This document shows, piece after piece, positions 368 to 61,427 of a stretch of 64,000 bases of DNA. Position numbers and translations under genes: made by a program. The notes under the pieces are model-generated. The model did not search any database and was not told the origin of the DNA. It saw only the letters and a list, made by a program, of their open reading frames with translations. Origin of the DNA: Cocleimonas flava (lineage in GTDB: Bacteria; Pseudomonadota; Gammaproteobacteria; Thiotrichales; Thiotrichaceae); contig NZ_SMFQ01000004.1 in NCBI RefSeq assembly GCF_004339015.1, positions 743,901 through 807,900 on the forward strand, in the 5' to 3' direction. The number at the start of each line of letters is the position of its first letter. Position 1 is the first letter of the stretch.

Positions 368-395
368 CACCCCCCTACTTTGGAGCGCTTTTTTT
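368..395 (+). repeat. Dispersed element copy R1
   Basis: Left core CACCCCCCTACTT, then TGGAGCGC and seven T. It lies between converging genes, 27 bases after the rightward peptidase stop and 85 from the leftward EamA stop. CCAAAG at 361-366 can pair with CTTTGG inside the element, giving a terminator-like fold for rightward transcripts. Confidence 0.85.
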
Positions 396-480
396 CAAAC
401 GTTTTATTAGCTATTAATATATTAATGGATATGTCAGATTAAGATACTTCATCCTGATCTGCTCAATATCTTGAGTAGAT

Positions 481-1344
481 CTAATCAATGTTCTTACCAA
501 TCCTCTTGCCAATATTCTTACCAAGAATAACCACCAAAATCCCACCCAGTACCAGCAATGATGAAACTATCAATATAGTAGTGATCTCTTCGCTAACGAA
601 AATGACACCACCTATCGCCGCGATTATGGGCACTGACAACTGAATAATCGCAGCCTTTGTAATGGCTAACCCTGAAAGAGCAGAATACCAAATGGCATAG
701 CCTAATCCAGACGTTACACTGCCAGAAAGTATTGCCAACAACACACCTTGGCTGGATAGCTGGGCTTTATCAACAGTGAAAAGGATCAGCAGTAATATAA
801 AGGGCAAGGTTCTTAAAAAGTTATTCGTCGTATCTAACAAGGGATTCTGGGATCCTCTGCCGGCTAGTGTATAAAACGCCCAGGCGATGCCTGACAATGT
901 CATCAACCCAAAACCACTTAAGGATGGCGCTGAGGCTCCTGGAACCAAAAACAAAACCAATCCGGAAAACGCCAAACATAGACCTATCCACTCTATCGGA
1001 ATCAGGCTCTTACCCTGCAATAAACCTGTCAAAATCATAGTGACCTGAACCACGCCGAATAAAATCAACGCACCTGTTCCCGTATCTAATGAAATGTAGG
1101 CATACGAGAAAGTGATTCCATATAAAAACAAAAGAAAAGCAGATAACCAACTGCCCTTTTTAAGGTTCACTTTTCCTTTTGTCTGGATGGCGACTAAAAG
1201 CATTAGAAATACGATTCCGGAGAACAGTCTTATCGCAGTGAAACTGGCCGCATCAATGACATCACCTTTCAAAGCGAGTCTGCACAAAACAGAGTTTCCG
1301 GCAAAGGCTAAAAGCGCTAAGACCGTAAAAAGAATCGTTTTAAT
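481..1344 (-). CDS. EamA/DMT-family membrane transporter, apparent ATT start
   Basis: A 288-codon hydrophobic protein with about ten predicted membrane segments arranged as two EamA halves; such proteins export amino acids or other small metabolites, substrate unknown here. The N-terminus expected for the family (IKTILFTVLALLAFAGNS, then VLCRLALKGD) is in frame upstream of the first conventional start, a TTG at 1287 that would remove the first helix. The frame is closed by a TAA six codons before position 1344, with no ATG, GTG or TTG between. The only sensible start is ATT at 1344, with AAGGGAG placed five bases before it. An ATG-to-ATT substitution or a sequencing error would look the same. 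A 10-base inverted repeat lies about 50 bases upstream. Confidence 0.8.
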   Translation of the reverse strand: MKTILFTVLALLAFAGNSVLCRLALKGDVIDAASFTAIRLFSGIVFLMLLVAIQTKGKVNLKKGSWLSAFLLFLYGITFSYAYISLDTGTGALILFGVVQVTMILTGLLQGKSLIPIEWIGLCLAFSGLVLFLVPGASAPSLSGFGLMTLSGIAWAFYTLAGRGSQNPLLDTTNNFLRTLPFILLLILFTVDKAQLSSQGVLLAILSGSVTSGLGYAIWYSALSGLAITKAAIIQLSVPIIAAIGGVIFVSEEITTILIVSSLLVLGGILVVILGKNIGKRIGKNID

Positions 1345-1391
1345 GGTAGCTCCCTTTTATATACATACGAAATAAATACGAATTGAATCTG

Positions 1392-1428
1392 CGTGTAAAC
1401 ATTGTGTAGATAGGCACTTGTTTACACG
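1392..1428. promoter_or_regulatory. 10-bp perfect inverted repeat, candidate operator
   Basis: CGTGTAAACA (1392-1401) and TGTTTACACG (1419-1428) are exact reverse complements separated by 17 bases. The site is about 50 bases upstream of the ATT start of the leftward EamA gene, where a regulator site or promoter would be expected. No T run follows, so it is not a terminator. The regulator is unknown. Confidence 0.45.
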
Positions 1429-1629
1429 TGATTTTAAAACACGATGAATTTATGCTTATACGAGATCCACATCAAATCCGATGCCTCACGAACAACTACT
1501 ATAGCAATAGAAATCATGCAAAAGCTATCAGCTTAAGAGGTGCGTTTTCAAGAAAGCGCTACGATCAAAATGATGAATTGAACGCTGATCGTTTTGCCTC
1601 TCGCTCATTCATTTTTCACTAATATCTGT

Positions 1630-1656
1630 AAAAAGTGCCCCAAAGGTGGGGGGTGG
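1630..1656 (-). repeat. Dispersed element copy R2 (minus orientation)
   Basis: Read on the minus strand: CACCCCCCACC, TTTGGGGCAC, five T. TAC of the usual core is ACC here. It lies between two divergently transcribed genes, where neither neighbour would need a terminator. The CCCC/GGGG pair can form a short hairpin. Confidence 0.8.
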
Positions 1657-1794
1657 CATAAGCAATAACGATTACAAAGTAATCACCAAATAGTTATCCA
1701 CTTTATGTTGATAAAAACTCAGCCTTAATTCACTATTCAACATTACAACGATTGCCAAAAACACACGCTTTATGGCGCAGATATTAGGAATTCT

Positions 1795-2796
1795 ATGGAT
1801 CCAATTACTCAAGGCGCCTTTGGAGCAGTCTTTGCACAAACTCAGGGCAATGTTAAACACATCGCCAAAGCCGCTATTATTGGCGGACTTGCTGGCATGG
1901 CGCCTGATTTAGATATTCTGATTCGCTCATCCGAAGATTCACTGTTAGCCATAGAATACCATCGTCATTTCACCCATTCTTTACTCTTTATTCCCATCGG
2001 CGGATTAATTTGTAGCTTATTTCTCCATCCCTTATTAGGGCGTCGTTTTGGCATCACTTTTTGGCAAACCCTTATCTGGTGCATCATTGGCTATGCAACA
2101 CATGGCTTATTAGATGGCTGTACCAGTTACGGCACACAATTACTCTGGCCTTTGACGGACAAGCGTTTTTCCTGGGATGTAATTTCCGTAATCGACCCAT
2201 TGGTTACTTTGCCCCTATTGGCCATGGTAATCATTGCAGCGAGAAGAAAAGCGCGTCGTTATGTCCTTTTCGGCCTCATCTGGATAGGTCTTTATTTTGG
2301 TATATCGACTTATCAACACGCACGTGCGTTAGAAGAAGGCAAAAAACTCGCTGCAACTCGTGGACTAGATACGTTGAGTATTGAAGCAAAACCCAGCTTT
2401 GCCAATATACTCATCTGGAAAATCATCACTGAAACAAACGACAGCTATCATGTGGATGCGATTAAAATAGGTCTCACAAAAGTAAAAATCTGGGAAGGAG
2501 ATACAGTAGAAAAGCTGGATATCGATAGAGATTTACCATGGTTAGACAAATCATCGCAACAACGAAAAGATATCGAGCGATTTCGTTGGTTCTCAAATGG
2601 ATATATAGCTTTAGATAAACAAAATCCTCATCGTGTTGTCGACATACGTTACTCACTATTACCGCATCAAATCATTCCTTTATGGGGGATCGAACTATCA
2701 CCCAATGCCAAACCTACTCAACATGTCGAGTTCTATAACGAACGTGGTGATAGTGGTGCTGCACTGAAGGTGCTATGGGGCATGATTAAGGAGTAG
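1795..2796 (+). CDS. YdjM-like membrane-bound metal-dependent hydrolase
   Basis: The 333-residue protein opens with MDPITQGAFGA and carries APDLD (about residue 37), HRHFTHS (about 56) and HGLLDGCTSYGT (about 102). This histidine/aspartate set is typical of the YdjM/DUF457 family of inner-membrane predicted metal-dependent hydrolases. Several hydrophobic segments occupy roughly residues 20-170; the C-terminal half is soluble and basic. The ATG has AGGA five bases upstream. In E. coli ydjM is SOS-regulated, but no LexA box was seen here. The substrate of the family is not known. It stands alone, 77 bases before ecotin on the same strand. Confidence 0.8.
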   Translation: MDPITQGAFGAVFAQTQGNVKHIAKAAIIGGLAGMAPDLDILIRSSEDSLLAIEYHRHFTHSLLFIPIGGLICSLFLHPLLGRRFGITFWQTLIWCIIGYATHGLLDGCTSYGTQLLWPLTDKRFSWDVISVIDPLVTLPLLAMVIIAARRKARRYVLFGLIWIGLYFGISTYQHARALEEGKKLAATRGLDTLSIEAKPSFANILIWKIITETNDSYHVDAIKIGLTKVKIWEGDTVEKLDIDRDLPWLDKSSQQRKDIERFRWFSNGYIALDKQNPHRVVDIRYSLLPHQIIPLWGIELSPNAKPTQHVEFYNERGDSGAALKVLWGMIKE

Positions 2797-4183: not shown

Positions 4184-4221
4184 TCTATTACATCGTCCTG
4201 CTTAAATTAACGGTTTAAACA

Positions 4222-4248
4222 CACCTCCCTACTTTGGGGCAGTTTTTT
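4222..4248 (+). repeat. Dispersed element copy R3
   Basis: CACCTCCCTACTT, TGGGGCAG, six T. One C of the core is T. It lies between two leftward genes and points against both; its T run ends 29 bases from the stop codon of the DUF3144 gene. Confidence 0.85.
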
Positions 4249-11707: not shown

Positions 11708-11753
11708 ATTTGTTGTTAATCAGCAAAAACACACATCTATAAAAATCAAAACA

Positions 11754-11780
11754 CACCCCCCTACTTATAGGGGGTTTTTT
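11754..11780 (+). repeat. Dispersed element copy R4, also a good intrinsic terminator
   Basis: CACCCCCCTACTT, ATAGGGGG, six T. Here the fold is strong: CCCCCTA pairs with TAGGGGG around a CTTA loop and is followed directly by T6, a credible terminator for the rlmN-bamB transcript. It ends six bases from the stop codon of leftward pgi. Confidence 0.9.
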
Positions 11781-15481: not shown

Positions 15482-15528
15482 AAAAACCGTTATCTATATC
15501 GCAATCGATAAAAGCGTATATTTAAACA

Positions 15529-15555
15529 CACCCCCCTACTTTGGAAGGCTTTTTT
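15529..15555 (+). repeat. Dispersed element copy R5
   Basis: CACCCCCCTACTT, TGGAAGGC, six T. It sits 47 bases upstream of the DUF455 start, in a divergent gap, pointing toward trpF. Neither neighbour ends here, so it is not the terminator of an annotated gene. Confidence 0.85.
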
Positions 15556-19583: not shown

Positions 19584-19634
19584 TGTCTCACTTTAAATAA
19601 ATACAGGAAATTAACTTTATTCATTCAATAAAGT

Positions 19635-19661
19635 CACCCCCCTACTTTGGGGCACTTTTTT
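19635..19661 (+). repeat. Dispersed element copy R6 (closest to consensus)
   Basis: CACCCCCCTACTT, TGGGGCAC, six T. It lies between two rightward genes, 159 bases after accD and 106 before folC, in the sense orientation for both. CCCC can pair with GGGG. Confidence 0.88.
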
Positions 19662-24840: not shown

Positions 24841-24862
24841 AGGGTAATTTAAACATTTAATA

Positions 24863-24890
24863 CACCCCTCTACTTTCAGGCACTTTTTTT
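24863..24890 (+). repeat. Dispersed element copy R7
   Basis: CACCCCTCTACTT, TCAGGCAC, seven T. It lies in a 53-base gap between converging genes, 22 bases after the L,D-transpeptidase and three bases from the stop codon of leftward pgsA. One C of the core is T. Confidence 0.85.
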
Positions 24891-31985: not shown

Positions 31986-32080
31986 ATCTCTTTTTAAACA
32001 TATCAGAACGTAATAAATAGAACTAAACAGGACTATTTAAAGTTACTTAGATAGTACTTCTAACTCATTACTCTATAAGT

Positions 32081-32107
32081 CACCCCCCTACTTTGAGGCG
32101 TTTTTTT
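32081..32107 (+). repeat. Dispersed element copy R8
   Basis: CACCCCCCTACTT, TGAGGCG, seven T. Its T run overlaps the stop codon (32106-32108) of the leftward Nif3-like gene. It is 95 bases after the rightward exported-protein gene. Confidence 0.87.
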
Positions 32108-35304: not shown

Positions 35305-35846
35305 GAGTAAGGGTTCTTAAATCCCAATTTATCTAACGTTTTTATTTCCAAAGCTTCCATTAATTCAGCTTCATCATCTTCTATATGATCATAGCCTTGC
35401 AGGTGCAACACACCATGTACAATCAAATGTGCCCAATGTTGCTTTGCTGTTTTATTTTGCTCTTTCGCTTCTCTATTCACAACACTTTCGCAAACCACCA
35501 GATCTCCTAAATGAACAGGTTGATCTTGGAGCTCTGGAATCGCCAAGAGTTCCTCTGGAAACTCATAAGGAAATGAAAGAATATTAGTGGTACTAGGTTT
35601 TTCTCGATAGGTCTGATTTAACGCTAACCCCTCTTCATCATCAACCACACGAACAACTAAAGTCACCCCCCCACTTTCAAGCAGTTTTTTTTGTTCGGCA
35701 ACTCCTGATTGCAAGGCACTGGCACTCCAGGATTCCAACTCTTCTATCGAAGGAATCGATGAGTAATTGCAGGGATTTTGCAGCTCCACCTCGACATTTA
35801 TGCTGGGCATATCATCAACAGACGGTAATTTTTCAGAAATCTTCAT
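35301..35846 (-). CDS. ybeY: Endoribonuclease/rRNA maturation factor YbeY
   Basis: A zinc-dependent RNase needed for 16S rRNA 3' end maturation. The H3xH5xH site is complete in HLIVHGVLHLQGYDH. The protein has 181 residues against 155 in E. coli. Part of the surplus is an N-terminal extension; by eye another eight to ten residues sit between the first helix and the VVRVVDDEE strand, in EQKKLLESGGVT (residues about 52-63). That segment is encoded by repeat copy R9. Catalytic motifs lie well downstream, so the enzyme is probably active. Confidence 0.93.
   Translation of the reverse strand: MKISEKLPSVDDMPSINVEVELQNPCNYSSIPSIEELESWSASALQSGVAEQKKLLESGGVTLVVRVVDDEEGLALNQTYREKPSTTNILSFPYEFPEELLAIPELQDQPVHLGDLVVCESVVNREAKEQNKTAKQHWAHLIVHGVLHLQGYDHIEDDEAELMEALEIKTLDKLGFKNPYS
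35664..35692 (+). repeat. Dispersed element copy R9, inside ybeY
   Basis: CACCCCCCCACTT, TCAAGCAG, eight T. The only copy within a coding sequence: the antisense strand of the element is translated in frame as part of YbeY. It has seven C and lacks the T of TACTT, as R15 and R18 do. Confidence 0.83.
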
Positions 35847-36940: not shown

Positions 36941-37044
36941 ATGAGGTTATTTTTCCGTTTCATAGTTTTATTCAAAAATTTATTCTAGCATGAATAAACC
37001 AAGTCAGAGAAACTATACAGGGGGATTTATACGAAATTCTTATG

Positions 37045-37069
37045 AAAAAGGGCTGTAAGTAGGGGGGTG
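37045..37069 (-). repeat. Dispersed element copy R10 (minus orientation)
   Basis: On the minus strand: CACCCCCCTACTT, ACAGCCC, five T. It lies downstream of the YpfJ-type gene, sense to it, 133 bases after its stop. Next to it GCCATT ATCAT AATGGC forms a hairpin on bases 37069-37085, followed on the + strand by CTCAAGCAC and T6, which resembles the tail of a plus-oriented copy. Confidence 0.82.
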
Positions 37070-37202
37070 CCATTATCATAATGGCTCTCAAGCACTTTTT
37101 TAGAAAGGCAAATACAGACTGAATAATGCATAAAGACCAGACTCTAACAATCAGAGCCTTGTCTTTATGATTAATAAATTTGAGCTTTGAGAACTTTTAG
37201 CT

Positions 37203-41344: not shown

Positions 41345-41500
41345 ATTATTACTTTCCTTTTCTAATTAATTTCTAAGAATCCAAAATCTGGATAGTTCTT
41401 GGTACATCTCAAACTTCGCATAAAGTATCTTAATATTCACTTTTTAGCTATTTTATTCTTAATACTTTAATGATTTTTTGAAGCAAGGGAATGTTAAATA

Positions 41501-41528
41501 CACCCCCCTACTTTGGGGCAGTTTTTTT
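41501..41528 (+). repeat. Dispersed element copy R11
   Basis: CACCCCCCTACTT, TGGGGCAG, seven T. Between two leftward genes and antisense to both; it ends 34 bases from the tpx stop codon. Confidence 0.88.
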
Positions 41529-42060: not shown

Positions 42061-42179
42061 TTTAAAACTCCTTTATTAAGTGATTATGTTTGGATATATG
42101 ATTTGTTGTTAATCGCTAACTAAACGTAGTCCTAATTATGCGAATAGGCAAATTAAGCACATAAATAAAAGTGTAATGT

Positions 42180-42206
42180 CACCCCCCTACTTTGAAGCAC
42201 TTTTTT
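42180..42206 (+). repeat. Dispersed element copy R12
   Basis: CACCCCCCTACTT, TGAAGCAC, six T. It is 119 bases upstream of tpx and 221 bases from the stop of the giant gene, antisense to both. Confidence 0.87.
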
Positions 42207-42367
42207 AGATGCATCATAGTATGGGCTTATTCCTGATTATCCGTAAATGACCCTTGATCCTAACCAAGTCTTCTAGTCTTCGCATGATAATGATTTCACC
42301 AACTTCCCCTCACCTTTGAGTCTAGGCTAAAGCCATATAAGACAGTGGTTTACTTAATATTGCGAAC

Positions 42368-42400
42368 AAAAAAAAAGGCGAACTTCAGTTCGCCTTTTTC
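42368..42400. terminator. Bidirectional intrinsic terminator after the giant gene
   Basis: AGGCGAACT and AGTTCGCCT pair over a two-base loop (TC), flanked by a run of A on the left and T on the right. It is 28 bases after the stop codon of the leftward 2492-codon gene, so this gene has its own conventional terminator distinct from R12. Confidence 0.92.
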
Positions 42401-42427
42401 ATTTTTCGTTAAACGTATTAGTTAAGC

Positions 42428-45400
42428 TTAGTAACGCCTTCTCCTCGCTAATGCTTCGCGTTGAGAGATCAAACCAAGCATCATCACCAAGAAGATCATT
42501 GCCCACTCACTGAGTGTCGGAATGTTCGCAGGGTTCACCACTCTCTCAACAAAGTCATTCGACACTGCCGTTTCTCCGCCATTAACATTGATAGCGCTAA
42601 TCAGATCATCCGGCTGACCTTCGCCTGTGGTTGATTGATAACCAACCGGTTGAGATTGAGCGACTTGATAATCACCCGGTATGATATTGGCAAAACTGTA
42701 ATTACCAAGCTCGTCCGTCAGTGCGGTAATTGGATTACCTTCACTGTCCATTACCGGATTACCTTCATTGTCTAATAATCTCATCAGTACGCCAGACATT
42801 GGCTCATCACCGATATTGTCACCGTCGGTATCTATAGAGACATTACCTGTGATGACACCTAAATCAGCATAAGCAAAGTCCTGATCGATATTATCTTCAC
42901 CTTCGCCCAGCTCGATGGTTGAGATTGAGTTTAGGTCACCATCAGGATCAACCGTATTGGTTAAACCAGTTGGTAAGGTATCGGTATTGACACTCACTTC
43001 ATACTCACCTGCAGGCAACTCAGTAAAGACATAACTACCATCAGCTAAGGTGACTGTTTCTATCGCTACGCCAGGACCATTACCTAAGTCGATATCAGCA
43101 GGAGGAAGCAACGTAACAGTGATTCCTGGCAGACCTTCATCAGTATCGGCTATACCGTCATAGTTGATATCCTGCCAAATGGTGTCTCCGATTGAACCCA
43201 GGTTTACATAAGCAAAGTCTTGATCGAGGTTACTTTCTTCACCGTTAAGGGTGACTGCAGAGATGGAGTCACTGCCACCGTCTGGATCTACACTGATGTT
43301 GCCTTGTAGGTCAGCAGGTAGTGTGGTTTCATCAACCGTAACAACATAGTCACCTGCGGGCAGTTCTTCAAACAGGTAGTTACCATTTTCATCTGTCTCT
43401 GTTGTCAGAGTGCTGTCATCAGGCAGTGTTAAGGTAACCGTTATGCCTTCTAACGCTTCTTCCGGGTCTACGACACCATTGTTGTTCTTATCGTGCCAGA
43501 TGGTGTCACCGATTGAGCTTGGGATGTAATAAGCAAAGTCTTGAGCCGTATTGTCTTCACCTGAACCTAAAGAAACAGTCGATTTAGCGTCGTTGTCTTC
43601 ATCAGGGTCAATGATGTTATTACCTTGAAGTGCATCAGGCAGGGTTGAATCAACCACTTCTACCGTATAGTCCCCTTCTGGTAAATCGCTGAACAGGTAT
43701 TTACCATCAACATCTGTTACCGCTGTGATCTTGCTACCGTCTGGCTGAGTCAATTCTACGGTTACATCTGCCAAGGCTTCACCAGGATCGACTATGCCGT
43801 CATCATTGATGTCATGCCAGATGGTATCTCCGATTGAACCAGGCGCATAGTAACCAAAGTCTTGGTCCAGATTATTTTCACCTTCACCCAGTACCAGTGT
43901 TGATGTCGAGTCGCTTTCAGAACCTGGCTCTACGGTGTTGTTACCTTGTAAAGCGGCTGGTAGTGTCGATTCGATGACTTCTACCGTGTATGCTCCACCA
44001 ATAAGGTCTTCGAATAGATAGTTACCATTACTGTCAGTTTCCAGCGTCACTTTGGTGCCGTCTGGTTTGGTTAGTTCAACGGTTACGCCTGATAAGCCTT
44101 CTCCAGCATCTATGATGCCATCGTTGTTTTTATCATAGAATACGGTATCACCGATTGAAGCGGGTTTGAAAATACCGGCATCAAGGGTGTCGTTGTTTTC
44201 ACCTGCGGTGAGTGTTACTGCCGCTGTCTTGCCATCTGTGCCCGCATCACTATCAACGCCATCATCTGTTTCGATGTTGGCCTTGGTGAAGCCGTAATCT
44301 TCTGGCAGGTCACTAAATGCGACTGAATAGCTTCCCGGTATTAAACCACCGAATAAGTAGCTACCATCTGAACCTGTCACGACGGTGATTTCCTGACCTG
44401 AAGTATCCAGTATCGGGTTACCTGAGCCATCTAATAAGGTGACTGTTACGCCAGCAATACCCGGTTCACCAGCATCTTGAATACCGTCGTTATTGAGATC
44501 ATTCCAGACTTTATTCCCTAAAGAGGCTGGCTGGTATATACCCGCATCGAGTGTGTCGTTATTATCTCCGGGTTCGAGTATTACGGGCGCTGTTTTACCG
44601 TTAGCACCAACATCACTGTCCAGAGCATCGTCACCGATATCATTGAGTGTTAAGCCAAACCCTGCCGGGAAGTTGCTGAACCCTACTGAGTAGGTTCCAG
44701 GCGCTAAACCTGTAAATAAATAGCTGCCGTCTAGTGCGGTAGTGGTGGTGATTGGATTGTTTGCATCATCCAGTATGGGATCACCTGCACCGTCGAGTAA
44801 GGTTACTAACACATTCGCTACACCCGCTTCGCCGGCATCTTGTACGCCGTCTCTGTCGAGATCATTCCAGACTCTGTTGCCAAGCGATGCAGGTAGATAG
44901 AGACCCGCATCAAGTGTGTCGTTATTATCTCCGGGTTCGAGTGTTACAGCAGCTGTTTTGCCGTCTGTTCCGGCATCACTATCCAAACCAATATCGGCAC
45001 CCGCATTAACTGTGGTCTGCTCAAAATCGGTGGGGTAGTCACTAAATTGAACGGCATAGTCACCTGGTGCTAAACCGGTAAAGCTATATGCCCCGTTTTC
45101 ATCGGTTGTTGTCGTGATTGGGTCATTATTCTCATCGAGAATTGGATCACCCGAACCATCGAGTAATGTTACCGTAACGTTCTCTATACCCTCCTCTGTT
45201 GGGTCTTGAATTCCATCGTTATTGAGATCGTTCCAAACATAGTTACCTAAGGTAGCGGGTAAGAAGATACCTGCATCTAGCGTATCGTTTGTTTCTCCTG
45301 CCGCTAAGGTGACTGAGGTTGTTTTACCATCTGTACCCACATTACTGTCGACAGCATCATCTGAACCAACCCCAGACTTTGTGGTTTCAAAACCTGCAGG

Positions 45401-48400
45401 GAGATTAGAGAACGCAACGGAATAGTCACCGGCAACCAAGCCAGTAAACTCATAGTTACCAAATTCATCGGTGGTGGTTGTGATCGGATTATTAGAAGCA
45501 TCCAGTATCGGATTACCAGAACCATCTAATAAGGTCACTGTGACGCCTTCAACATCGGCTTCACCCGAATCTTGAATACCGTCGTTATTTTCATCGTTCC
45601 ACAGTCTGCCACTCAATGTTGCAGGTAGATATAAACCCAGGTCTAAAGTGTTATTGGTTTCACCGGCTACCAAAGTTACAGGTGATGTCGCTTGATCGGC
45701 AGCACTGGCATCACTGTCTGTTGTATCATCACCGACATTGGCCAGTGTCGGTATGAAATCTTCGGGGAATGTACTAAAGCTGACAGAGTATGTTCCTGGT
45801 TCTAAATCTGTAAATGAATAACTACCATCAGAGGCTGTCATTGTGGTTATTGGTGCAGAATTCGGATCTGCTGGGTCACTCAATACCGGATCACCGCTGG
45901 TATCTAACAAGGTGACTGTCACATCAGCAATACCGATTTCTCCACTATCCTGAATACCGTCGTGATTCACATCATCCCACACATAATTACCTAGCGCAGA
46001 TAGTTGCCTGTAACCAAAGCTCTGATCCATATCACTGGACACATTGGTTAATTCACCTGTAATTGGATCTACTTCAGCACCTAGAGTAACGTCTGAAATA
46101 CTGTCCGTACCTGTGCCATTGGTGTCGTAGGTCTGAGAAGCATTGGGAGGAAAATCAGGATCGTTCGTATCCACCTGCACCTGATAATCGCCAGCGGGTA
46201 GATTATCAAACGAGTAAGAACCATCAGTACCTGTGACAACGGTATAAGGAATTGCATCAGGTGTTCCTGCTGGAACAACTAAGCCCGTTACTGGGTCGAT
46301 CAAGATTGGATCGCCATTACCATCTAATAAATTAACGGTTACATTCGGGATAATGTCTTCAATGCCTTCTTGCGTCTGACTTCCATCCTGATCTATCCAC
46401 AACACACTGCCGATTGAACCTGAAACAACAGTGACACTAACATCATTAGAGATCACGTTTAATGAGATTTCTGGAATACGTCCACCAAAAGTATTGGTGT
46501 AAATATCACCGGTAGATGCATCCGTTACATTCCCTTCTGCATCTAAGCTTGGTGTTCCACCCTTGTTACCGCTAGGTGTGATTTCAATCGTTACTGTTTG
46601 GCCTCCATCTGTGGCCGCTAAGGTAGGCACCGTAAATTTTATTGCAGTAATATCTGCATTAGATAGAGCACCACAACTTAAAGGGCTTAAAGCGCTACAC
46701 TGAACCCACCCTGTCGAATTTGTACCAACACTACCACCACCTGGCAAACTACCATTATTATCAAAGTAACGGTTACACACACCACCATCTACATCAGGGT
46801 TATAACCATTCGGTAAATTACTCGCATGACAAGGGTCTTCTTCAATATTTGAGGGCGCTGTTACCGTGGCATAAAAGGTTTCTCCGTTACTTCCTGATAC
46901 TGAAGTTACCTCATAAGTGCCATTAAATAGTGATTCGGGATCACGTGTACTGCTTATTCCACCTGTAGTTGTAGCCGCATCACCGTTATACGGTAAAATA
47001 TCAATGAATTCAGCACCCGAATAATCCTCACCACCAAGGTTTTTATAGACTAAATTAAAACTAAACGGAGTATTCGTTTGGTAGACAGCTTCATCGACAC
47101 TTTTCAAAACATCTAACCCAAATTCAGGCAGTATGGTTAACTGATATCTCGCTTCTTTAGCATCACCACCAATTACGCCTGAGTTAATATTAGCGATATT
47201 AACAAAAGTACCCGAAACTCTAGCAGGATCAACATAAACCGAATATTTTATTAACGGCAGCTGATCACTATTTCCTCCTGAAGAATTCAGTGAACCAAAC
47301 ACCCAGCTAAGAGGATCTGCACCACCCGCATGTGCCGCACTTGTTACAGATACATCCTCCATACCACCATTAAATCGGGCATCCCATTCCGCACGGGTAT
47401 ACCAGGTTGTTCCACCATCAGAACTAAACATTTCTGAATTAGCGATATAGTCCGTGCCATTGGGCAAGTTATCACCGATTGTTGCAGTGTTTACAGAGGT
47501 GTCATCCCACAAACCAAATACAGCAGGTTCTATAATAAAATCGACAGTATCACCACCGCGTACTACTTTAATTCCACGAGGTTCAGTGTATTTTTCTATG
47601 GAATGAGAAGAAGGGACTAAAGTCATTCTATCAACTGTTCCTGACTGAATAGCAAACGTGGCGTCAGCGGAAGGATCTACAGTATTCGCTCCAACATGTG
47701 TCCAGCCCGTGTAAGTTCCGTCAGCTTCTTGACGGTTGTATGAAGCAAAGTTAGGTAAGCGGTTATTTGTACCGTAGGGACTTTCTGTAATAAGTTTTGC
47801 AGTGATTAAATGATTTACGGTAACTGCAAACTTTTTATGCGTTGAATCCTGTGCAGTAGCAAGGGCAGCATCATAAATTGAGTTTTGTCTAACACGGGTA
47901 ACATTTTCATCTGCACCAGCACCACCTGCTACAGGAGGTACGTCATCAGCATTTCGCCACCAATCAATATTAGTACCTGTGGCAGTATCACCATTTTCAT
48001 CAACTAATGATCCATCTTCGTTTTGTATAACAACAAAACCATCATTGTTAATATCATCATTACAACTAGCAGTTCTCAATTCTTCCAAATAACCGGCCTG
48101 GTTAGTTATGGGGTCAGCGGCGTATGGATGATTACTAAATAGAAAATTTACTAAACTCGAACCATCGGCTAGTGTCGTTCCAACAGCTCCATCCCATGTA
48201 GAAACAACTGGATTCCAAGGTTGGTTTTGATTCCAACCATATAGAGCAGGACTCCCTATTTGATTTGGTGGCGCAACGCCTGCGTATTCAAACACTTGCG
48301 TATCGATTTTATCGCACACTTGGGTTTCCGCCTGATCAATCAAACGATAATCATAGACATTCATTAAGAATGGGCGCGTCTCACCAGCAGCCATGTTCTG

Positions 48401-49906
48401 ATCAGGAAACTTCCTATCAGCAAAAGGAAAAAGATTAGTAAATGCTTTATGAACCACAAAAGAACCGGGTGAAGACGTCGTCAACGGGTATGAAACCTCA
48501 TTTGGAAATGGCTCTTCACCATCATTATAATTGTCAACATGATTGCCCGCTGAATCTTCTGTAGAAACGATACCAGGGTTATTTCCTGTAGGAGCATTAT
48601 CATTAGTCTCATCGAATGAGTCTAAAATCGTACTTGACCCATCCCAAAAACCTACACGATTAGTTGTTGTATTAATACACTCTGGCTGGTTTAACTCATT
48701 ACAGGTTTGATGGTTATCAATATCATTTACTTTATCAAACCAAACATTTAATCGAACCTCGAATAAATTCGCATCATTGTCTGGATCCGATACATCAATA
48801 TTGTCTAGATCAATCTGAATCACTAAATCATTCAAACCATCTGGAACTGATGCACCTGGGCCTATATCATCTATAGCAGCTGAAAGCTGAGTACAGGTAA
48901 CAGAAGCTGCTGCTCCATGGTCTCCTAATAACTCACAGGCAGGAGTCAGTGAATCCCACGTATACAATTGAGCACCGGTTGAAAGAGTTGCCGTATTGTT
49001 ATGCTCATTGTCATCTGTCAAAACATCAATAATTCTATAGCTTGCAATTCCAGGACTTCCTCCTGATGTTGTATCATTATCACCATCAGCGAGAAGTGAC
49101 CCTTTAACATATTCAGCCAAGACTGTGTATTCGATAATAGAGCCCGCTCTACCGGTAGGACCTTTTTTTAGAGGAGCGCTATAAAGCGAAGCACCTGTAT
49201 CAGGATCAACAGCTGTACTTTTAAGCTCTTTTTGCAAATCAACTCGGAAAAAACCGGTAACAACAACGGAAGTAGGACCATCAGACGCAGGAGCAGAATT
49301 TCCATTTTCTACAGAAACTGCCTCGGCAACTACGCCAGCAGTAACGATATCGTCGTTTCGAGTCACATCGCCAGTTAAAGGATCAAGACCTACGGCTCTG
49401 GCAGCAGGGAAAAACACACGTGTTGTCCCCTCGATAGCTGGCCCCATATTACAAAATAACTCAGTATCACTATTACGAATTTCAGAAATACCCTCTGACC
49501 CGACCTCACTAGGATCTGTTTTACAGCCCGTAGGAATGGTGATCCATTTTTGTTTTTCATTTAATGTAACAGTAGCTGTCAAATCTTCGACGTCACTATC
49601 ATTCACTGATACTTCTACACGATAAGTAATAGAATCCTGTAAACGGACGATATTATTATTTTCGTCAGCATCTAAACCTGCATTAACTCCACCATCGACG
49701 CCACCTGGGCCATCACCAGTCCAGCTGACACCTGTATCAAAAGGTTCTGAACCCGTTTTTTCTAACGTTATTGTCGTGTTTACCACTGGTGTAGCAGCAT
49801 GAATAACTGTTGTGGATACTATGAATAAACTCGCCAAAACAAATTTGAAAAAACTATCAAATTTATGGAGCAGTAAACTAAATATCGTAAGTGTATTTAT
49901 AATCAT
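42428..49906 (-). CDS. Giant secreted SdrD_B-repeat protein with IPTL-CTERM sorting tail
   Basis: A 2492-residue surface or exported protein. Signal peptide to about residue 37 (ending VIHA). Residues about 40-1160 are beta-rich, Asp/Asn/Gly/Thr-rich and not assigned, with isopeptide- or DUF11-like stretches. Residues about 1163-2440 contain about eleven SdrD B-type repeats, each opening like LGNYVWNDLNNDGIQD, then GVTVTLLD and GxYxFxxLxxGxYxV; the D-x-N-x-D-G-x-x-D segments should bind calcium. The last 31 residues (IPTLSEWAMIFLVMMLG then RRRR) are an IPTL-CTERM signal, a proposed exosortase-type target. No sorting enzyme is encoded nearby. It probably acts as an adhesin or matrix protein. 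Confidence 0.9.
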   Translation of the reverse strand: MIINTLTIFSLLLHKFDSFFKFVLASLFIVSTTVIHAATPVVNTTITLEKTGSEPFDTGVSWTGDGPGGVDGGVNAGLDADENNNIVRLQDSITYRVEVSVNDSDVEDLTATVTLNEKQKWITIPTGCKTDPSEVGSEGISEIRNSDTELFCNMGPAIEGTTRVFFPAARAVGLDPLTGDVTRNDDIVTAGVVAEAVSVENGNSAPASDGPTSVVVTGFFRVDLQKELKSTAVDPDTGASLYSAPLKKGPTGRAGSIIEYTVLAEYVKGSLLADGDNDTTSGGSPGIASYRIIDVLTDDNEHNNTATLSTGAQLYTWDSLTPACELLGDHGAAASVTCTQLSAAIDDIGPGASVPDGLNDLVIQIDLDNIDVSDPDNDANLFEVRLNVWFDKVNDIDNHQTCNELNQPECINTTTNRVGFWDGSSTILDSFDETNDNAPTGNNPGIVSTEDSAGNHVDNYNDGEEPFPNEVSYPLTTSSPGSFVVHKAFTNLFPFADRKFPDQNMAAGETRPFLMNVYDYRLIDQAETQVCDKIDTQVFEYAGVAPPNQIGSPALYGWNQNQPWNPVVSTWDGAVGTTLADGSSLVNFLFSNHPYAADPITNQAGYLEELRTASCNDDINNDGFVVIQNEDGSLVDENGDTATGTNIDWWRNADDVPPVAGGAGADENVTRVRQNSIYDAALATAQDSTHKKFAVTVNHLITAKLITESPYGTNNRLPNFASYNRQEADGTYTGWTHVGANTVDPSADATFAIQSGTVDRMTLVPSSHSIEKYTEPRGIKVVRGGDTVDFIIEPAVFGLWDDTSVNTATIGDNLPNGTDYIANSEMFSSDGGTTWYTRAEWDARFNGGMEDVSVTSAAHAGGADPLSWVFGSLNSSGGNSDQLPLIKYSVYVDPARVSGTFVNIANINSGVIGGDAKEARYQLTILPEFGLDVLKSVDEAVYQTNTPFSFNLVYKNLGGEDYSGAEFIDILPYNGDAATTTGGISSTRDPESLFNGTYEVTSVSGSNGETFYATVTAPSNIEEDPCHASNLPNGYNPDVDGGVCNRYFDNNGSLPGGGSVGTNSTGWVQCSALSPLSCGALSNADITAIKFTVPTLAATDGGQTVTIEITPSGNKGGTPSLDAEGNVTDASTGDIYTNTFGGRIPEISLNVISNDVSVTVVSGSIGSVLWIDQDGSQTQEGIEDIIPNVTVNLLDGNGDPILIDPVTGLVVPAGTPDAIPYTVVTGTDGSYSFDNLPAGDYQVQVDTNDPDFPPNASQTYDTNGTGTDSISDVTLGAEVDPITGELTNVSSDMDQSFGYRQLSALGNYVWDDVNHDGIQDSGEIGIADVTVTLLDTSGDPVLSDPADPNSAPITTMTASDGSYSFTDLEPGTYSVSFSTFPEDFIPTLANVGDDTTDSDASAADQATSPVTLVAGETNNTLDLGLYLPATLSGRLWNDENNDGIQDSGEADVEGVTVTLLDGSGNPILDASNNPITTTTDEFGNYEFTGLVAGDYSVAFSNLPAGFETTKSGVGSDDAVDSNVGTDGKTTSVTLAAGETNDTLDAGIFLPATLGNYVWNDLNNDGIQDPTEEGIENVTVTLLDGSGDPILDENNDPITTTTDENGAYSFTGLAPGDYAVQFSDYPTDFEQTTVNAGADIGLDSDAGTDGKTAAVTLEPGDNNDTLDAGLYLPASLGNRVWNDLDRDGVQDAGEAGVANVLVTLLDGAGDPILDDANNPITTTTALDGSYLFTGLAPGTYSVGFSNFPAGFGLTLNDIGDDALDSDVGANGKTAPVILEPGDNNDTLDAGIYQPASLGNKVWNDLNNDGIQDAGEPGIAGVTVTLLDGSGNPILDTSGQEITVVTGSDGSYLFGGLIPGSYSVAFSDLPEDYGFTKANIETDDGVDSDAGTDGKTAAVTLTAGENNDTLDAGIFKPASIGDTVFYDKNNDGIIDAGEGLSGVTVELTKPDGTKVTLETDSNGNYLFEDLIGGAYTVEVIESTLPAALQGNNTVEPGSESDSTSTLVLGEGENNLDQDFGYYAPGSIGDTIWHDINDDGIVDPGEALADVTVELTQPDGSKITAVTDVDGKYLFSDLPEGDYTVEVVDSTLPDALQGNNIIDPDEDNDAKSTVSLGSGEDNTAQDFAYYIPSSIGDTIWHDKNNNGVVDPEEALEGITVTLTLPDDSTLTTETDENGNYLFEELPAGDYVVTVDETTLPADLQGNISVDPDGGSDSISAVTLNGEESNLDQDFAYVNLGSIGDTIWQDINYDGIADTDEGLPGITVTLLPPADIDLGNGPGVAIETVTLADGSYVFTELPAGEYEVSVNTDTLPTGLTNTVDPDGDLNSISTIELGEGEDNIDQDFAYADLGVITGNVSIDTDGDNIGDEPMSGVLMRLLDNEGNPVMDSEGNPITALTDELGNYSFANIIPGDYQVAQSQPVGYQSTTGEGQPDDLISAINVNGGETAVSNDFVERVVNPANIPTLSEWAMIFLVMMLGLISQREALARRRRY
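42846..46420 (-). repeat. Tandem DNA repeats encoding SdrD_B-like modules
   Basis: Repeat starts fall near 46410, 45995, 45620, 45255, 44890, 44528, 44162, 43840, 43520, 43200 and 42865 (minus-strand order). Central units are about 363-366 bases long, while the next group toward the C-terminus is about 320 bases, giving two subfamilies (LGNxVWNDLNxDGIQD and IGDTIWHDxNxDGxxD). High identity between neighbours points to expansion by recombination. Confidence 0.85.
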
Positions 49907-50185
49907 TTTTCCCCAGCTCTTTGAGAGAGTGTGTTTAGCTTGAAAGTAAATTCATATTTGGAATCGACATTCCTAAAGAAAACATTGAAATGGAATTAAT
50001 TCAGCTATTGTTAAAATTATGTGATTAATATCAGTAAATCGGCTGCAATATATCAAAGACAACCTTAACGAATTATTAATATGCAAAGCATTTTTTAGAT
50101 TAGTCTAAGTTATTGTTTAATAATTTATTTTAGTTTTTATTAAAAGACTACCATATTAAAAACACACAGAGCTATAGAGCGAGGT

Positions 50186-50211
50186 CGCCCCCCCCCTACT
50201 TTGAGAAGGTT
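50186..50211 (+). repeat. Dispersed element copy R13, degenerate
   Basis: CG then nine C, TACTT, TGAGAAGGTT. The leading A is G, the C tract is expanded and the T run is lost. Probably a decaying copy. Confidence 0.7.
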
Positions 50212-50416
50212 GATTTCAATCTGAAATAGGGTTAATTAGCTTAAAGCGAATGAACCTTAAGTTGTTGCCAAAGAAATGACAGCACTTTTTTTTTGATTTT
50301 TATATGAGTATTGAAACTGTAATGAAAGCAAAACAGCATGTGGTTGATGTACTGGCAGGAATCAAGCTTAGTGAAAGCTGCTTTTAATCTTTAGATTAAA
50401 AAGCAAAAACACTTAT

Positions 50417-50443
50417 CACCCCCCTACTTATAGGCACTTTTTT
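50417..50443 (+). repeat. Dispersed element copy R14
   Basis: CACCCCCCTACTT, ATAGGCAC, six T. CCTA can pair with TAGG around CTTA. It ends eight bases from the uvrA stop codon and is antisense to uvrA. Confidence 0.88.
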
Positions 50444-54776: not shown

Positions 54777-55769
54777 ATGACCAAGCTAAAAACAATCTTC
54801 GGAATTGCCCAATCCCCAGTCAGCCACATTGAGAAAATAGTATCCGCAACGGGGGGATTTACAGCTATTTTCTTCATTATCATTATTAGCCAACAAATGC
54901 TGAGTGGTGATACTAGCAGTACCGCCTTAATCATCGCTTCTATGGGCGCTTCTGCGGTATTGCTGTTTGCTGTTCCACACGGCCCACTCTCCCAGCCCTG
55001 GCCGGTGATTGGCGGTCATCTGATCTCAGCTTTGATTGGGGTAAGTTGTGCGAAATTGATTCCCAACGAATTGATGGCAGCGAGCCTTGCGGTCGGCATT
55101 GCGATTGGTGCGATGTATTATTTGAAGTGCATCCACCCGCCTGGTGGTGCAACGGCGTTGTCAGCAGTCATCGGGGGAAGTGCCACGCATGAGTTAGGCT
55201 ACCAGTTTATTCTCACCCCTATTCTTCTCAATGTTGTTGTGATTTTGATGGTCGGCATTTTATTTAACTATCCATTTGCCTGGCGTCGTTACCCCTTTTT
55301 ATTGCATCGCTTTTCACAACAAAAGCAAAATCAGATTGAGACACCAAGTCCTGACACTGAAGTGATTCCATCAATCACACACGAAGATTTCGTTTATGCA
55401 CTGAGTGAGATTGATTCTTTTATTGATGTTAGTGAATATGATTTGATTCGAATCTATAACATTGCGACTAAAAAATCGCAGCAGGCATCATTCGATCCGA
55501 AGAAAATGATTGTAGGCAGTTATTACAGCAGCGCCAAACATGGCGAGAACTGGACGGTACGCCAGATTGTCGATGAATCCTCTCCTAATATTGAAGGCAC
55601 TAAAAGTGCAGATCCAGATAAAGATATCGTAATTTATAAAGTCATCGAAGGAAAAAACAAACGCAGCTCTGGCTACTCAACCCGCAAGGAGTTTCTGGAA
55701 TGGGCTAAACATCAGGTTGAACCCGATGGCAAGGCATGGAAAATACTAGAACACACCCCCCCACTTTGA
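54777..55769 (+). CDS. HPP family membrane protein with soluble C-terminal domain
   Basis: A 330-residue protein. The first 180 residues hold about four membrane helices and the HPP signature KCIHPPGGATALSAVIGG; VPHGPLSQPWPVIGGH is the other conserved loop. Some HPP proteins are nitrite transporters in plastids and cyanobacteria; the role here is unknown. Residues about 185-330 are soluble, charged and not recognised. The ATG follows the yajR-like stop with no gap, so the pair is co-translated. The last residues (HTPPL) and the TGA stop are supplied by repeat copy R15. Confidence 0.83.
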   Translation: MTKLKTIFGIAQSPVSHIEKIVSATGGFTAIFFIIIISQQMLSGDTSSTALIIASMGASAVLLFAVPHGPLSQPWPVIGGHLISALIGVSCAKLIPNELMAASLAVGIAIGAMYYLKCIHPPGGATALSAVIGGSATHELGYQFILTPILLNVVVILMVGILFNYPFAWRRYPFLLHRFSQQKQNQIETPSPDTEVIPSITHEDFVYALSEIDSFIDVSEYDLIRIYNIATKKSQQASFDPKKMIVGSYYSSAKHGENWTVRQIVDESSPNIEGTKSADPDKDIVIYKVIEGKNKRSSGYSTRKEFLEWAKHQVEPDGKAWKILEHTPPL

Positions 55770-55780
55770 GGCTGTTTTTT
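55754..55780 (+). repeat. Dispersed element copy R15, supplies a stop codon
   Basis: CACCCCCCCACTT, TGAGGCTG, six T. The TGA at 55767-55769 is the stop of the HPP gene. The copy also ends 26 bases from the stop of the converging lipoprotein gene. Confidence 0.87.
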
Positions 55781-57090: not shown

Positions 57091-57317
57091 GTTGAATACC
57101 TTGTTGTTGAATACTGTTGTTGAATATTGTTGTTTTTATTTTGCAGCTATTATTTTCCCGGTGTTCTGGATGTATTAATAGTCTGTGTATTCTAAGTGTT
57201 ACTCACTGAACTAGGTCTGAATTCGAGTATTTTGCTCTCTGAAAGCAAAGAAAGGATGTATGAAGGATGAAAACGAGAATAGGAATAAGGGAATGTATTA
57301 TTCGTTTATGAATAATA

Positions 57318-57344
57318 CACCCCCCTACTTTCAGGGCTTTTTTT
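57318..57344 (+). repeat. Dispersed element copy R16
   Basis: CACCCCCCTACTT, TCAGGGC, seven T. Its T run overlaps the TAA stop (57343-57345) of the leftward transhydrogenase-like gene, to which it is antisense. Confidence 0.87.
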
Positions 57345-58647: not shown

Positions 58648-58743
58648 TTGAATCTCCCATTTTTTGTATTCAAAAGGATAGTTCTAAAACTCGAAGCTTG
58701 CCAAATTAATCGGTGTTTTTGATTTAATGATAACTATTATTGT

Positions 58744-58769
58744 CACCCCCCTACTTAGGAGCCTTTTTT
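58744..58769 (+). repeat. Dispersed element copy R17
   Basis: CACCCCCCTACTT, AGGAGCC, six T. It lies in the 186-base gap between two divergent genes, 96 bases upstream of the leftward gene start and 64 upstream of the rightward one, so it can terminate neither. Confidence 0.86.
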
Positions 58770-58833
58770 ATTCTATTCTTAAATTAAGATTAAAGAATTA
58801 ACACATAGAGTTATCAAACATGAGAGGGAAAGC

Positions 58834-59580: not shown

Positions 59581-59599
59581 AATGCGGATAGTGACTAAA

Positions 59600-59620
59600 C
59601 GTTAACAGCAAGTGTTAACG
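59600..59620. other. 8-bp hairpin after the SDR gene
   Basis: CGTTAACA and TGTTAACG pair over GCAAG, 19 bases after the SDR stop. Then TCTCATGC and five T follow, so it may be a weak terminator. Further right a second stem, GCACCT with AGGTGC (near 59650-59667), and the direct repeat AATAGGCACGAG (twice) fill the gap. Confidence 0.5.
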
Positions 59621-59772
59621 TCTCATGCTTTTTAAAACGCATTCTTTGAGCACCTTTTTTAGGTGCCTTTAATAGGCACGAGTAATAGGCACGAGTTTCA
59701 AACATTTGTTTCTAGTATTGAGGTATAAACATCGAGGTATAAAAAGCGATGTCTAAAAGTCACACATACTAA

Positions 59773-59794
59773 ACAGGCTCTAGAAAGAGCCTGT
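59773..59794 (-). terminator. 9-bp hairpin downstream of marR
   Basis: ACAGGCTCT and AGAGCCTGT pair over AGAA, 36 bases after the leftward marR stop. Only three T follow on the minus strand, so termination would be weak. Confidence 0.5.
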
Positions 59795-59830
59795 GAATTA
59801 ACAATGATAGTATTTTTTATAGAAAATAAA

Positions 59831-60274
59831 TTAAGATTGTTCCATTAATTTTTTGTGATTTTCTGTAATTTTTCCAACGATTTCTTGAAGTTTATTGATG
59901 TCTTCTTCAGAAATATTTTCATTGATATTGTCTGTTAACGTACCAAAGTTTTCACGTAAGGTGTTTCTAACCGCTTCCCCTTCGCTAGTTAGTTGCACAT
60001 ATACTGTACGTCTGTCTTTTGTTCCATGAGTACGCTTTACCAGTTCTTTCTTTTCCATTCTGGAAATAAGCGTAGAAACGGCAGAACTATCCAAATTCAT
60101 CTTTTTTGATAATTCATTCATGGTCAGTTTTTCTTTGGTATCAAGAATTTCTAACACATAAACTTTTTGAGGAGTTACATCCATACCAAGGGTATCTTTG
60201 TAAAACCCGGTAATCTCTCGCCAGCCGTTATAAAAGTTAAAGCATATAAATTGATTTAGATCAAAGTTCATCAT
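59831..60274 (-). CDS. MarR family transcriptional regulator
   Basis: A 147-residue winged-helix regulator (from the ATG at 60274). The DNA-binding part shows LTMNELSKKMNLDSSAVSTLISRMEKKELVKRT, reading helix-turn-helix then the DRRTVYVQLT wing, broken here by the ORF into GTKDRRTVYV. The start at 60274 (or 60271) gives a normal MarR length; a GTG at 60328 would add 18 unlikely residues. It is divergent from the UbiA-type gene and probably controls it, with palindromic candidates at 60301-60308 and 60346-60360. Confidence 0.87.
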   Translation of the reverse strand: MMNFDLNQFICFNFYNGWREITGFYKDTLGMDVTPQKVYVLEILDTKEKLTMNELSKKMNLDSSAVSTLISRMEKKELVKRTHGTKDRRTVYVQLTSEGEAVRNTLRENFGTLTDNINENISEEDINKLQEIVGKITENHKKLMEQS

Positions 60275-60345
60275 TGTTGTCTCTGTTATAGGTTTATAAA
60301 ACAATTGTAGTTTAAAATACACATGCACGTTGCTTAGAAATTAAT

Positions 60346-60360
60346 CACAAAACTTTTGTG
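60346..60360. promoter_or_regulatory. Palindrome in the marR-prenyltransferase gap, candidate MarR site
   Basis: CACAAAA, C, TTTTGTG: a perfect 7-bp inverted repeat 60 bases before the prenyltransferase ATG. A second palindrome, ACAATTGT, lies at 60301-60308. MarR proteins bind such AT-rich palindromes in divergent gaps; the assignment is inference. Confidence 0.45.
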
Positions 60361-60419
60361 TGCAAATTTTTTCTATTGGTATTCTAACACTATTTCACTA
60401 TAAATATAAAAAACACTGA

Positions 60420-61331
60420 ATGAGGAAGGGGAACATTAAAACTCTATTAAAATCAATGCGTTTGCCATTTTTAACGCTTACTTTCAGCAGTATTTTCCTT
60501 TCCTATTCGGCAGTCTATTACAACCGTTCATCCTTTCAAGTCATTGATTTGTTGCTGATTGCCCTCGGTGCAGTGTCAGCACATATCAGTGTAAATAGCT
60601 TTAACGAGTACTACGACTTCAAAAGTGGATTGGACGCACTCACTGAAAAAACCCGTTTCAGTGGTGGCAGTGGTGCATTAATTATTAACCCCAATTCATC
60701 TCGCAACGTTCTTTCTAGCGCTCTAGTGTTTTTAACCATAACCATATTGGTTGGTCTGTTTTTTATTATAAAGAACGGCCCGAGTATACTACCTTTTGGG
60801 CTTTTCGGCATTATAATAATAATAAGCTATACTAATTGGCTGAACCGTAGCCCCTTCTTTTGCTTAATTGCCCCTGGTTTAGCGTTCGGACCAATAATGA
60901 TAATGGGCACTTATTTAGTGTTAACAAGCAGCCTTTCAATACACACCTTTTTTCTTTCATTGATTCCGTTTTTTCTGGTGAATAATCTGCTGCTATTAAA
61001 TCAACTCCCCGATATTAAGGCAGATAAAACGGTAGGAAGACGTCACTTCCCTATTGTTTATGGCATTGAGAACAGCTTAAAGCTGTATGCAATCAATACT
61101 ATGATTACGGGTCTAATCATTATTATGCTTGTGAGTCTGAAAGTTTTGCCTGCGCTGTCATTGATATCAATACTGCCTTTATTGGCGAGCATCAAAGTCT
61201 TTCGTGGACTTCATACTCATATTGAAGAAATCAGAACCCGGCAGTTTGCCAATATTGAACCTCTATTAGGGTTAAATGTTGGTATGACGCTTGTTACTCC
61301 CGTATTAATAGGTCTCACACTTTTGTTGTAA
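60420..61331 (+). CDS. UbiA family prenyltransferase
   Basis: A 303-residue membrane enzyme with about eight to nine helices. The first aspartate-rich motif is NEYYDFKSGLD (about residues 62-72), followed by TRFSGGSGAL as in MenA-like members; the second is QLPDIKADKTVGRRHFPI (about 197-214). It should attach an isoprenoid chain to an aromatic or polar acceptor in the membrane, acceptor unknown. The ATG at 60420 lacks a good ribosome binding site; an ATG at 60456 is an alternative. It is divergent from marR and ends at R18. Confidence 0.85.
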   Translation: MRKGNIKTLLKSMRLPFLTLTFSSIFLSYSAVYYNRSSFQVIDLLLIALGAVSAHISVNSFNEYYDFKSGLDALTEKTRFSGGSGALIINPNSSRNVLSSALVFLTITILVGLFFIIKNGPSILPFGLFGIIIIISYTNWLNRSPFFCLIAPGLAFGPIMIMGTYLVLTSSLSIHTFFLSLIPFFLVNNLLLLNQLPDIKADKTVGRRHFPIVYGIENSLKLYAINTMITGLIIIMLVSLKVLPALSLISILPLLASIKVFRGLHTHIEEIRTRQFANIEPLLGLNVGMTLVTPVLIGLTLLL

Positions 61332-61398
61332 CTAAAGAAAATAACTAAAGAATATAACTAAACAATATCGCTATAGAATGTAGTTAAAAGAATGATAC

Positions 61399-61427
61399 AA
61401 AAAAACGGCCTATAAGTGGGGGGGGTG
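61399..61427 (-). repeat. Dispersed element copy R18 (minus orientation)
   Basis: On the minus strand: CACCCCCCCCACTT, ATAGGCCG, seven T. It lies between converging genes, in the sense direction for the leftward HAD gene, 84 bases after its stop and 67 bases from the prenyltransferase stop. Eight C in the tract. Confidence 0.84.

Follow-up and report, generated by a model that had tools for sequence, protein, structure and literature searches.

A replication-polar 31-base element of Cocleimonas and its likeness to DNA-uptake signal sequences

Known uptake signals and the Cocleimonas element

To our knowledge, firm cases of sequence-tagged DNA uptake come from just two bacterial families, so that ideas on the origin and change of such tags rest on very few cases. 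Pasteurellaceae have uptake signal sequences (USS) and Neisseriaceae have DNA uptake sequences (DUS). Here we analyze a 31-base element with a C-rich core, CACCCCCC, that is scattered over the genome of Cocleimonas flava, a marine sulfur bacterium, and that was noticed in a stretch of 64,000 nucleotides (the window; C3:743901-807900 of genome G000, 4.49 Mb in 10 contigs). Judged by analogy, the element rather probably acts as a signal for self-recognition in DNA uptake, convergent with the Pasteurellaceae USS.

USS and DUS are described, in the available part of PMC1626085, as having in common a strong consensus very unlike that of regulatory sites, a density of about one per kb and no significant orientation bias, the last being a reported property and not a working part of the signal. 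The accessible text of PMC7811141 adds inverted pairs, kinking and A/T-tracts for USS, and a minor pilin, PpdA/ComN, has been proposed as the USS receptor (PMC12616744, available portion). As a control, 80 kb were read of G237, presumably a member of Pasteurellaceae and the only genome among 377 with USS-like matches of this kind (394 + 405). This stretch holds 50 USS, 24 forward and 26 reverse, with neighbours in the same orientation 21 times and opposite 17 times; counted from the start of the core, A/T-rich stretches fall at 10-15 and 23-28.

The first-pass annotation, made on the window, described a dispersed element, and the whole genome bears this out: the exact core 13-mer CACCCCCCTACTT occurs 529 + 192 = 721 times, versus 0 + 0 for the reversed control. 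In a 1.544-Mb sample of G000 (75 stretches, the window among them, with 16,097 N bases), a weight matrix with a threshold of at least 14 bits gave 416 positions, versus 0 in order-3 Markov sequence of equal length. Removal of overlaps and edge sites left 397, a density of about one per 3.9 kb, from which roughly 1000 sites can be extrapolated for the genome; under any reading, so many strongly constrained 31-base sites need a reader. Among the 397 sites the core is perfect in 241 and has one, two, three and four mismatches in 85, 55, 12 and 4, respectively. A 77-kb gap in the C1 site list was rejected as biology, since the stretch there (L035) includes 15,999 bases N. The consensus, AAAGN-CACCCCCC-TACTT-WNRGGC-NN-TTTTTT (209 sites, first 735 kb), is wider than the 27 bases initially proposed.

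An exact match to the element was present in 9 of 57 relatives' genomes searched, all nine in Cocleimonas (12 genomes), and in none of 45 genomes from 28 other genera; a spaced pattern run against the GTDB collection gave, among the matches listed (at least 65 stretches), 64 from Cocleimonas and one from a ‘Thiotrichaceae bacterium’. The G000 form had no exact match in viral contigs, the window had no match in Rfam, and no name for the element was found in the literature searched.

Within Cocleimonas, dialect-specific forms occur in G000/G007, the G003 type, the G011 type, the G006 type, G010 and G002/G009. The G003 type reads AAAAGA-CACCCCCC-TACTTTT-N5-TTTT, the G011 type AAATGA-CACCCCCC-TACTTTTT, and the G006 type AAAGTA-CACCCCCC-CACTTTTT-TGCCC-TTTT; G010 carries AGC-CACCCCCC-YTCTTTTT-CGATG-WTTTGT (two sites, more among the matches listed) and G002/G009 carry ACC-CATCCCCCC-YK-TTTTTT-GCATA-TTTTTG (G009 with one site). 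Two phased A/T-tracts after the core are clear in the G002, G006 and G003 types; in G002 they follow the start of CATCCCCCC at about 11-16 and 22-26, and in G006 their positions are about 11-16 and 21-24. A genus-wide pattern count runs low for CACCCCCC forms because the pattern has one C too many, and its reverse counts are inflated by registers of the T-run; it was used only for the forward count of G002 (349 matches, the pattern being suited to the G002 form), for the G010 list and for G001, G004 and G005, whose counts are small (6, 5 and 0) and in which no element was seen in 21, 22 and 5 kb, respectively.

Places matching those of G000 were sought loosely across the dialects (flanks 60-78% identical, gaps of at most 1.9 kb, the first element in the G000 gap being scored). 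Relative to G000, the G003 type had two elements in the same orientation and none at two places; the G011 type two same, one opposite and one without; the G006 type two same and one opposite, the latter a member of an inverted pair common to G000 and G006; and G002 two same. The form found at every matching place is that of the local dialect. Receptor and motif co-evolution could be tested directly in such a genus, which has about six dialects and some species nearly devoid of the element.

Intergenic preference, the excess of perfect cores, dialects, inverted pairs and the layout of the T-tracts all resemble features of known uptake signals. The wider proposal adds to the uptake sequences of Pasteurellaceae and Neisseriaceae a third family, that of Cocleimonas, which would have evolved independently, have some six dialects within the genus and, in G000/G007, have its copies locked to replication and flipping at dif. 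It is likewise drawn by analogy and is offered tentatively, with somewhat more doubt than belief.

Conservation and orientation along the chromosome

The closest relative, G007, is 87% identical to G000 over the best block. Those of its loci that were fetched by the element pattern are biased towards element presence; its contiguous stretches are unbiased. At 39 of 42 comparable sites the element of G007 agrees with that of G000 in both place and orientation, the remaining three places being two degenerate C-rich sequences and one without recognisable sequence. Across the 39 pairs, for which up to two core mismatches were accepted, somewhat favouring the core, mismatch per base is 2.6% in the core, 22% in the AAAG stretch, 11.5% in the T-tract, 21-32% at positions 13-20 and 40-45% in the flanks. 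The 7-8 bases first described as varying are indeed among the parts that differ between dialects, but these mismatch values mark them as partly constrained.

In the aligned blocks of two G000/G007 regions 35 sites are shared and four rows are listed as differing: one is a shared site that differs in the length of its C-run, two represent a single displaced or degenerate site, and one has decayed by substitutions and a gap. These few cases include no clean insertion, and decay by sequence change is seen in cases too few to judge the origin of the sites. Such data bear on the idea that the copies are tiny mobile elements, like repetitive extragenic palindromic (REP) sequences or miniature inverted-repeat transposable elements, inserted with a replication-strand bias. 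High copy number, intergenic places and replication polarity, a known trait of single-strand transposition, would fit; yet the Y1 transposase (PF01797) has 0 matches in G000 (the same search was positive in 5 of 14 control genomes), orthologues retain the core while the middle drifts, and clean empty sites with target duplications are not among the few differences. The mobile-element explanation was rejected for the absent transposase and the lack of clean insertions, and we give it hardly any credence.

The orientation of the element follows replication in G000 and G007. A dif-like site at C2:116,878 in G000, with two mismatches to the consensus, is taken here to be dif; dnaA lies at C1:968.7-970.1 kb. 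The C strand is on the lagging strand in 224 of 285 unpaired intergenic copies of G000 (224:61, p=5e-23). Generic polarity of G-runs was rejected as the cause: intergenic G-runs outside elements are weakly polar (GGG 554:399, GGGG 129:91), and the bias of the element exceeds the 58% of such GGG runs with p=3e-13. Where C2 was read fully (1-480 kb), the best orientation switch falls at 116.5-120 kb, an interval containing dif, with 87 of 110 copies in agreement; unpaired copies are 16-:6+ to the left of the switch and 71+:17- to the right (Fisher p=4e-6). G007 has its corresponding switch on C4, in the interval from 20.2 to 37.8 kb, and its dif at 22.0 kb; close pairs excluded, copies are 6-:0+ on the left and 22+:3- on the right up to 152 kb, followed by four minus-strand copies at 168.6-172.5 kb.

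Polarity is weak near dnaA. On C1, where the ratios are for exact cores only and cover the first 100 forward places and 70 of 95 reverse-orientation places among the matches listed, it is 34:28 within 450 kb on the left and 14:8 over 155 kb on the right, versus 47:16 on the outer left; on C2 it is 106:23. Near and far differ with p=2e-4 in the pooled left comparison and p=0.025 within C1-left. Two runs of minority orientation, six consecutive copies at C2:290676-303675 of G000 (L148, L216) and four at C4:168641-172498 of G007 (L134), resemble small inverted blocks.

Neighbouring elements have the same versus opposite orientation in ratios of 175:81 in G000, 85:13 in G007 (loci may overlap), 8:8 in the G003 type, 2:2 in the G011 type, 2:3 in the G006 type and 4:1 in G002; exact cores of G006, pairs excluded, give 11 same and 1 opposite (p=0.006), with the dif contig of that genome mixed, and G010 shows 2 same and 5 or 6 opposite among the matches listed. 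Polarity is thus clear in G000 and G007 and possible in G006, and elsewhere none was seen in small numbers.

These patterns make a chromosome-polarity signal the main rival of the uptake signal: a DNA translocase that moves directionally, or some other process aimed at the terminus, would read the asymmetric site to find dif, much as FtsK-orienting polar sequences (KOPS) or SpoIIIE recognition sequences (SRS) are read. The switch at dif in both genomes and the rise of polarity away from dnaA and on C2 speak for such a signal, and the G-rich sense of the element runs from ori to ter, as does that of KOPS. Several observations nevertheless leave this explanation unlikely. The C-terminal gamma recognition stretch of FtsK, which includes the residues that contact KOPS, is identical in all 12 genus genomes regardless of dialect, so that re-specification of FtsK gamma was rejected and this domain is not an obvious reader of the element. 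Canonical KOPS, GGGNAGGG, is absent from the element but is present and polar in G000 (37:5). The G003 type and G010 show no visible polarity in the small numbers given above, and a 31-base sequence with T-tracts and dialects is unlike known polarity octamers. Among 8-mers of the G000 sample, KOPS is skewed but sparse, and GAAGAGGG (40:2) and AGCAGGGC (41:6) are skewed as well.

The replication-locked orientation may be secondary to uptake, or it may be the sign of a second function. Current models of uptake sequences, to the extent that the available texts cover them, do not account for a switch at dif, and neither does a change in FtsK gamma.

Gene context and pairing

Positions of genes around the G000 sites come from crude longest-ORF (open reading frame) calls. 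Of the 397 sites 388 could be placed: 47 inside ORFs of at least 300 nt, 56 intergenic in close pairs and 285 unpaired intergenic. The copies were at first placed at operon ends, a description that holds in part: 341 of the 388 are intergenic, with a shift towards gene 3′ ends where the gap is tandem or convergent, but 51 of the 285 stand between divergent genes, 88 of the 285 oppose both neighbouring genes, and orientation is independent of gene direction. The lagging:other ratio is 67:16 in convergent gaps, 41:10 in divergent gaps, 46:18 in lagging-strand tandems and 70:17 in leading-strand tandems, with no effect of arrangement (chi-square p=0.53).

A binding site for a nucleoid or boundary protein in intergenic gaps, for instance an insulator against head-on transcription with a lineage-specific orientation, would agree with copies near gene 3′ ends on either strand, with the maintenance of place and orientation between species, and perhaps with the C strand followed by a T-run, which may be the sense of head-on transcription. 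The copies between divergent genes and the equal orientation across all gene arrangements speak against such a site, as does a consensus exceeding the usual strength of regulatory sites (PMC1626085, available part). We therefore regard a boundary function as improbable.

A sequence rich in C, with some G and then a T-run, also invites the reading that the copies are ordinary intrinsic terminators of the adjacent genes. It was proposed from the start that the sequence is conserved and not the pairing, and this is what the columns indicate: at 185 sites with a T-tract, out of the 209, the pairing at all 14 position pairs is within 0.02 of column expectation (for instance 0.57 observed versus 0.56 expected at (-2,20), and 0.85 versus 0.85 at (2,17)), while the core barely changes in the 39 G007 orthologues. 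No covariation of stem pairs was found. The four strongest column correlations join adjacent bases (13/14, 8/9, 19/20 and -2/-1), as would be expected from DNA-step preferences. The folding of the 337 single copies is somewhat stronger than that of mononucleotide shuffles (median -2.8 and mean z -1.3 for the C strand, -6.7 and -2.2 for the G strand), and the less common inverted pairs form strong palindromes, both of which would suit a terminator. Against it, observed pairing equals expectation, nearly a third of the unpaired copies face both neighbours and orientation is not tied to the upstream gene, and the G002 form, by inspection, has almost no G to pair with the C-run. On covariation, folding and gene context the terminator reading was rejected for single copies in general, and is very improbable. 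Close pairs in G000 comprise 11 '+-', four '-+' and one '++'; those at L025, L034, L049, L136, L137, L131 and L133 are inverted and form perfect or near-perfect palindromes, variable bases included.

All 18 copies first reported are present in the window (Table 1). Fifteen, R13 included, are on the plus strand and three on the minus strand (1629, 37043 and 61400); 17 of the 18 score 29.1-52.0 bits with the 33-column matrix, and R13 scores 11.8.

Table 1. Element copies in the window, with scores from the 33-column matrix
Copy	Position	Strand	Score (bits)	Remarks
R1	362..394	+	49.9	
R2	1629..1661	-	41.2	ACCTT core variant
R3	4216..4248	+	42.0	Core with one C to T; core of G007 orthologue perfect
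R4	11748..11780	+	45.9	G007 orthologue
R5	15523..15555	+	41.7	Between divergent ORFs; G007 copy at aligned place
R6	19629..19661	+	52.0	G007 orthologue
R7	24857..24889	+	40.2	G007 orthologue
R8	32075..32107	+	49.7	G007 orthologue
R9	35658..35690	+	45.2	CACTT variant; CACTT also at aligned place in G007
R10	37043..37075	-	36.4	Minority orientation, in G007 too; G007 orthologue
R11	41495..41527	+	48.6	G007 orthologue; in G011 two opposed dialect copies at matching place, one in R11 orientation
R12	42174..42206	+	48.0	Left border of 8.2-kb segment missing from G007
R13	50183..50215	+	11.8	Weak match without T-tract, decayed or chance
R14	50411..50443	+	39.2	Right border of 8.2-kb segment, beside uvrA
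R15	55748..55780	+	40.0	CACTT variant; G007 orthologue
R16	57312..57344	+	44.3	G007 orthologue
R17	58738..58770	+	41.9	G007 orthologue
R18	61400..61432	-	29.1	Minority orientation, same in G007; G007 orthologue

The direct copies R12 and R14 bracket the 8.2-kb segment (42174-50443), which encodes a 2492-aa SdrD_B/IPTL-CTERM repeat protein. At this place G007 has one copy, whose left flank matches the R12 side and whose right flank matches the R14 side; the breakpoint of the segment's gain or loss therefore lies at the element.

The uptake reading and known systems

As an uptake signal, the element would consist of the C-rich core, an A-rich flank and one or two T-tracts on the same side, about one helical turn apart. 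A DNA receptor on a type IV pilus might bind the core, and the T-tracts could aid kinking of the duplex on its way through the secretin. DNA carrying the signal would enter preferentially and recombine, so that intact copies would be upheld by biased exchange, persisting where a 31-base sequence is tolerated, mainly between genes; a change in the receptor would let the whole set of sites drift towards another species dialect. Copies of the G000/G007 lineage would in addition have become aligned with replication, the C strand lagging. The polarity could arise if the signal sets the entering strand and if incorporation is more frequent for single strands that anneal to the lagging-strand template. 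If this proved true, self-DNA recognition in transformation would be linked to strand-specific incorporation at the replication fork.

The ComEC family (PF03772) was found in 11 of the 12 genus genomes. A pilin motif scan gave three ORFs, two of them pilin-like. The cluster at C3:940274-947709 of G000 (L170), with two Tt1218-like pilins, PilW, PilX and a 1264-aa PilY1, is one in which a candidate DNA receptor may be sought.

Several points weigh against an uptake signal. ComEC also occurs in three genomes nearly devoid of the element (G001, G004 and G005), and no ComEC was found in G003, an element-bearing genome (completeness 89%). The first T-tract of the G000 form is only two or three bases long. 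The orientation bias is strong, and the density is sparser than the approximately one per kb of USS and DUS, for which the available text of PMC1626085 reports no significant bias. Competence in Cocleimonas was not encountered in the portions of the literature available here, and no literature joining uptake signal sequences with Thiotrichales was found. On uptake sequences and replichores, the literature search yielded a single E. coli paper, and neither ‘lagging’ nor ‘replichore’ occurs in the accessible text of PMC2397512. We do not file the element as a USS, because it departs from the reported lack of orientation bias and because the uptake reading is one of analogy.

Among known systems, REP elements with their REP-associated tyrosine transposases (RAYT) resemble the Cocleimonas element in having hundreds of intergenic copies and GTAG, here on the G strand; the differences are those already named, G000 having no Y1 transposase and its differences from G007 no clean insertions. 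Chi sites are likewise G-rich, lie mostly on the leading-sense strand and occur once per few kb, but the element is much longer, intergenic and equipped with T-tracts and dialects, and E. coli Chi has a ratio of 37:24 in G000. With KOPS and the AIMS (architecture imparting sequences) octamers the element shares replichore polarity, a G-rich sense towards dif, the switch at dif and, in G000, the weakening near ori; it is unlike them in having 31 bases and not 8, an intergenic location and dialects, while the FtsK gamma stretch is unchanged and canonical KOPS is still present.

The DUS of Neisseriaceae are comparable in their species dialects of one motif, strong consensus and inverted pairs; they have no flanking motifs (PMC1626085, available part), unlike the element with its T-tracts and polarity. 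From USS the element differs in its unrelated core sequence and family, in a density about four times below one per kb, in being 88% intergenic, and in its strong replication polarity in G000/G007. It resembles the USS of the Hin and Apl types in its GC-rich core followed by two same-side A/T-tracts at similar spacing and in its very strong consensus, many copies, inverted pairs, non-coding preference and subclade dialects (G237, and the available texts of PMC1626085 and PMC7811141).

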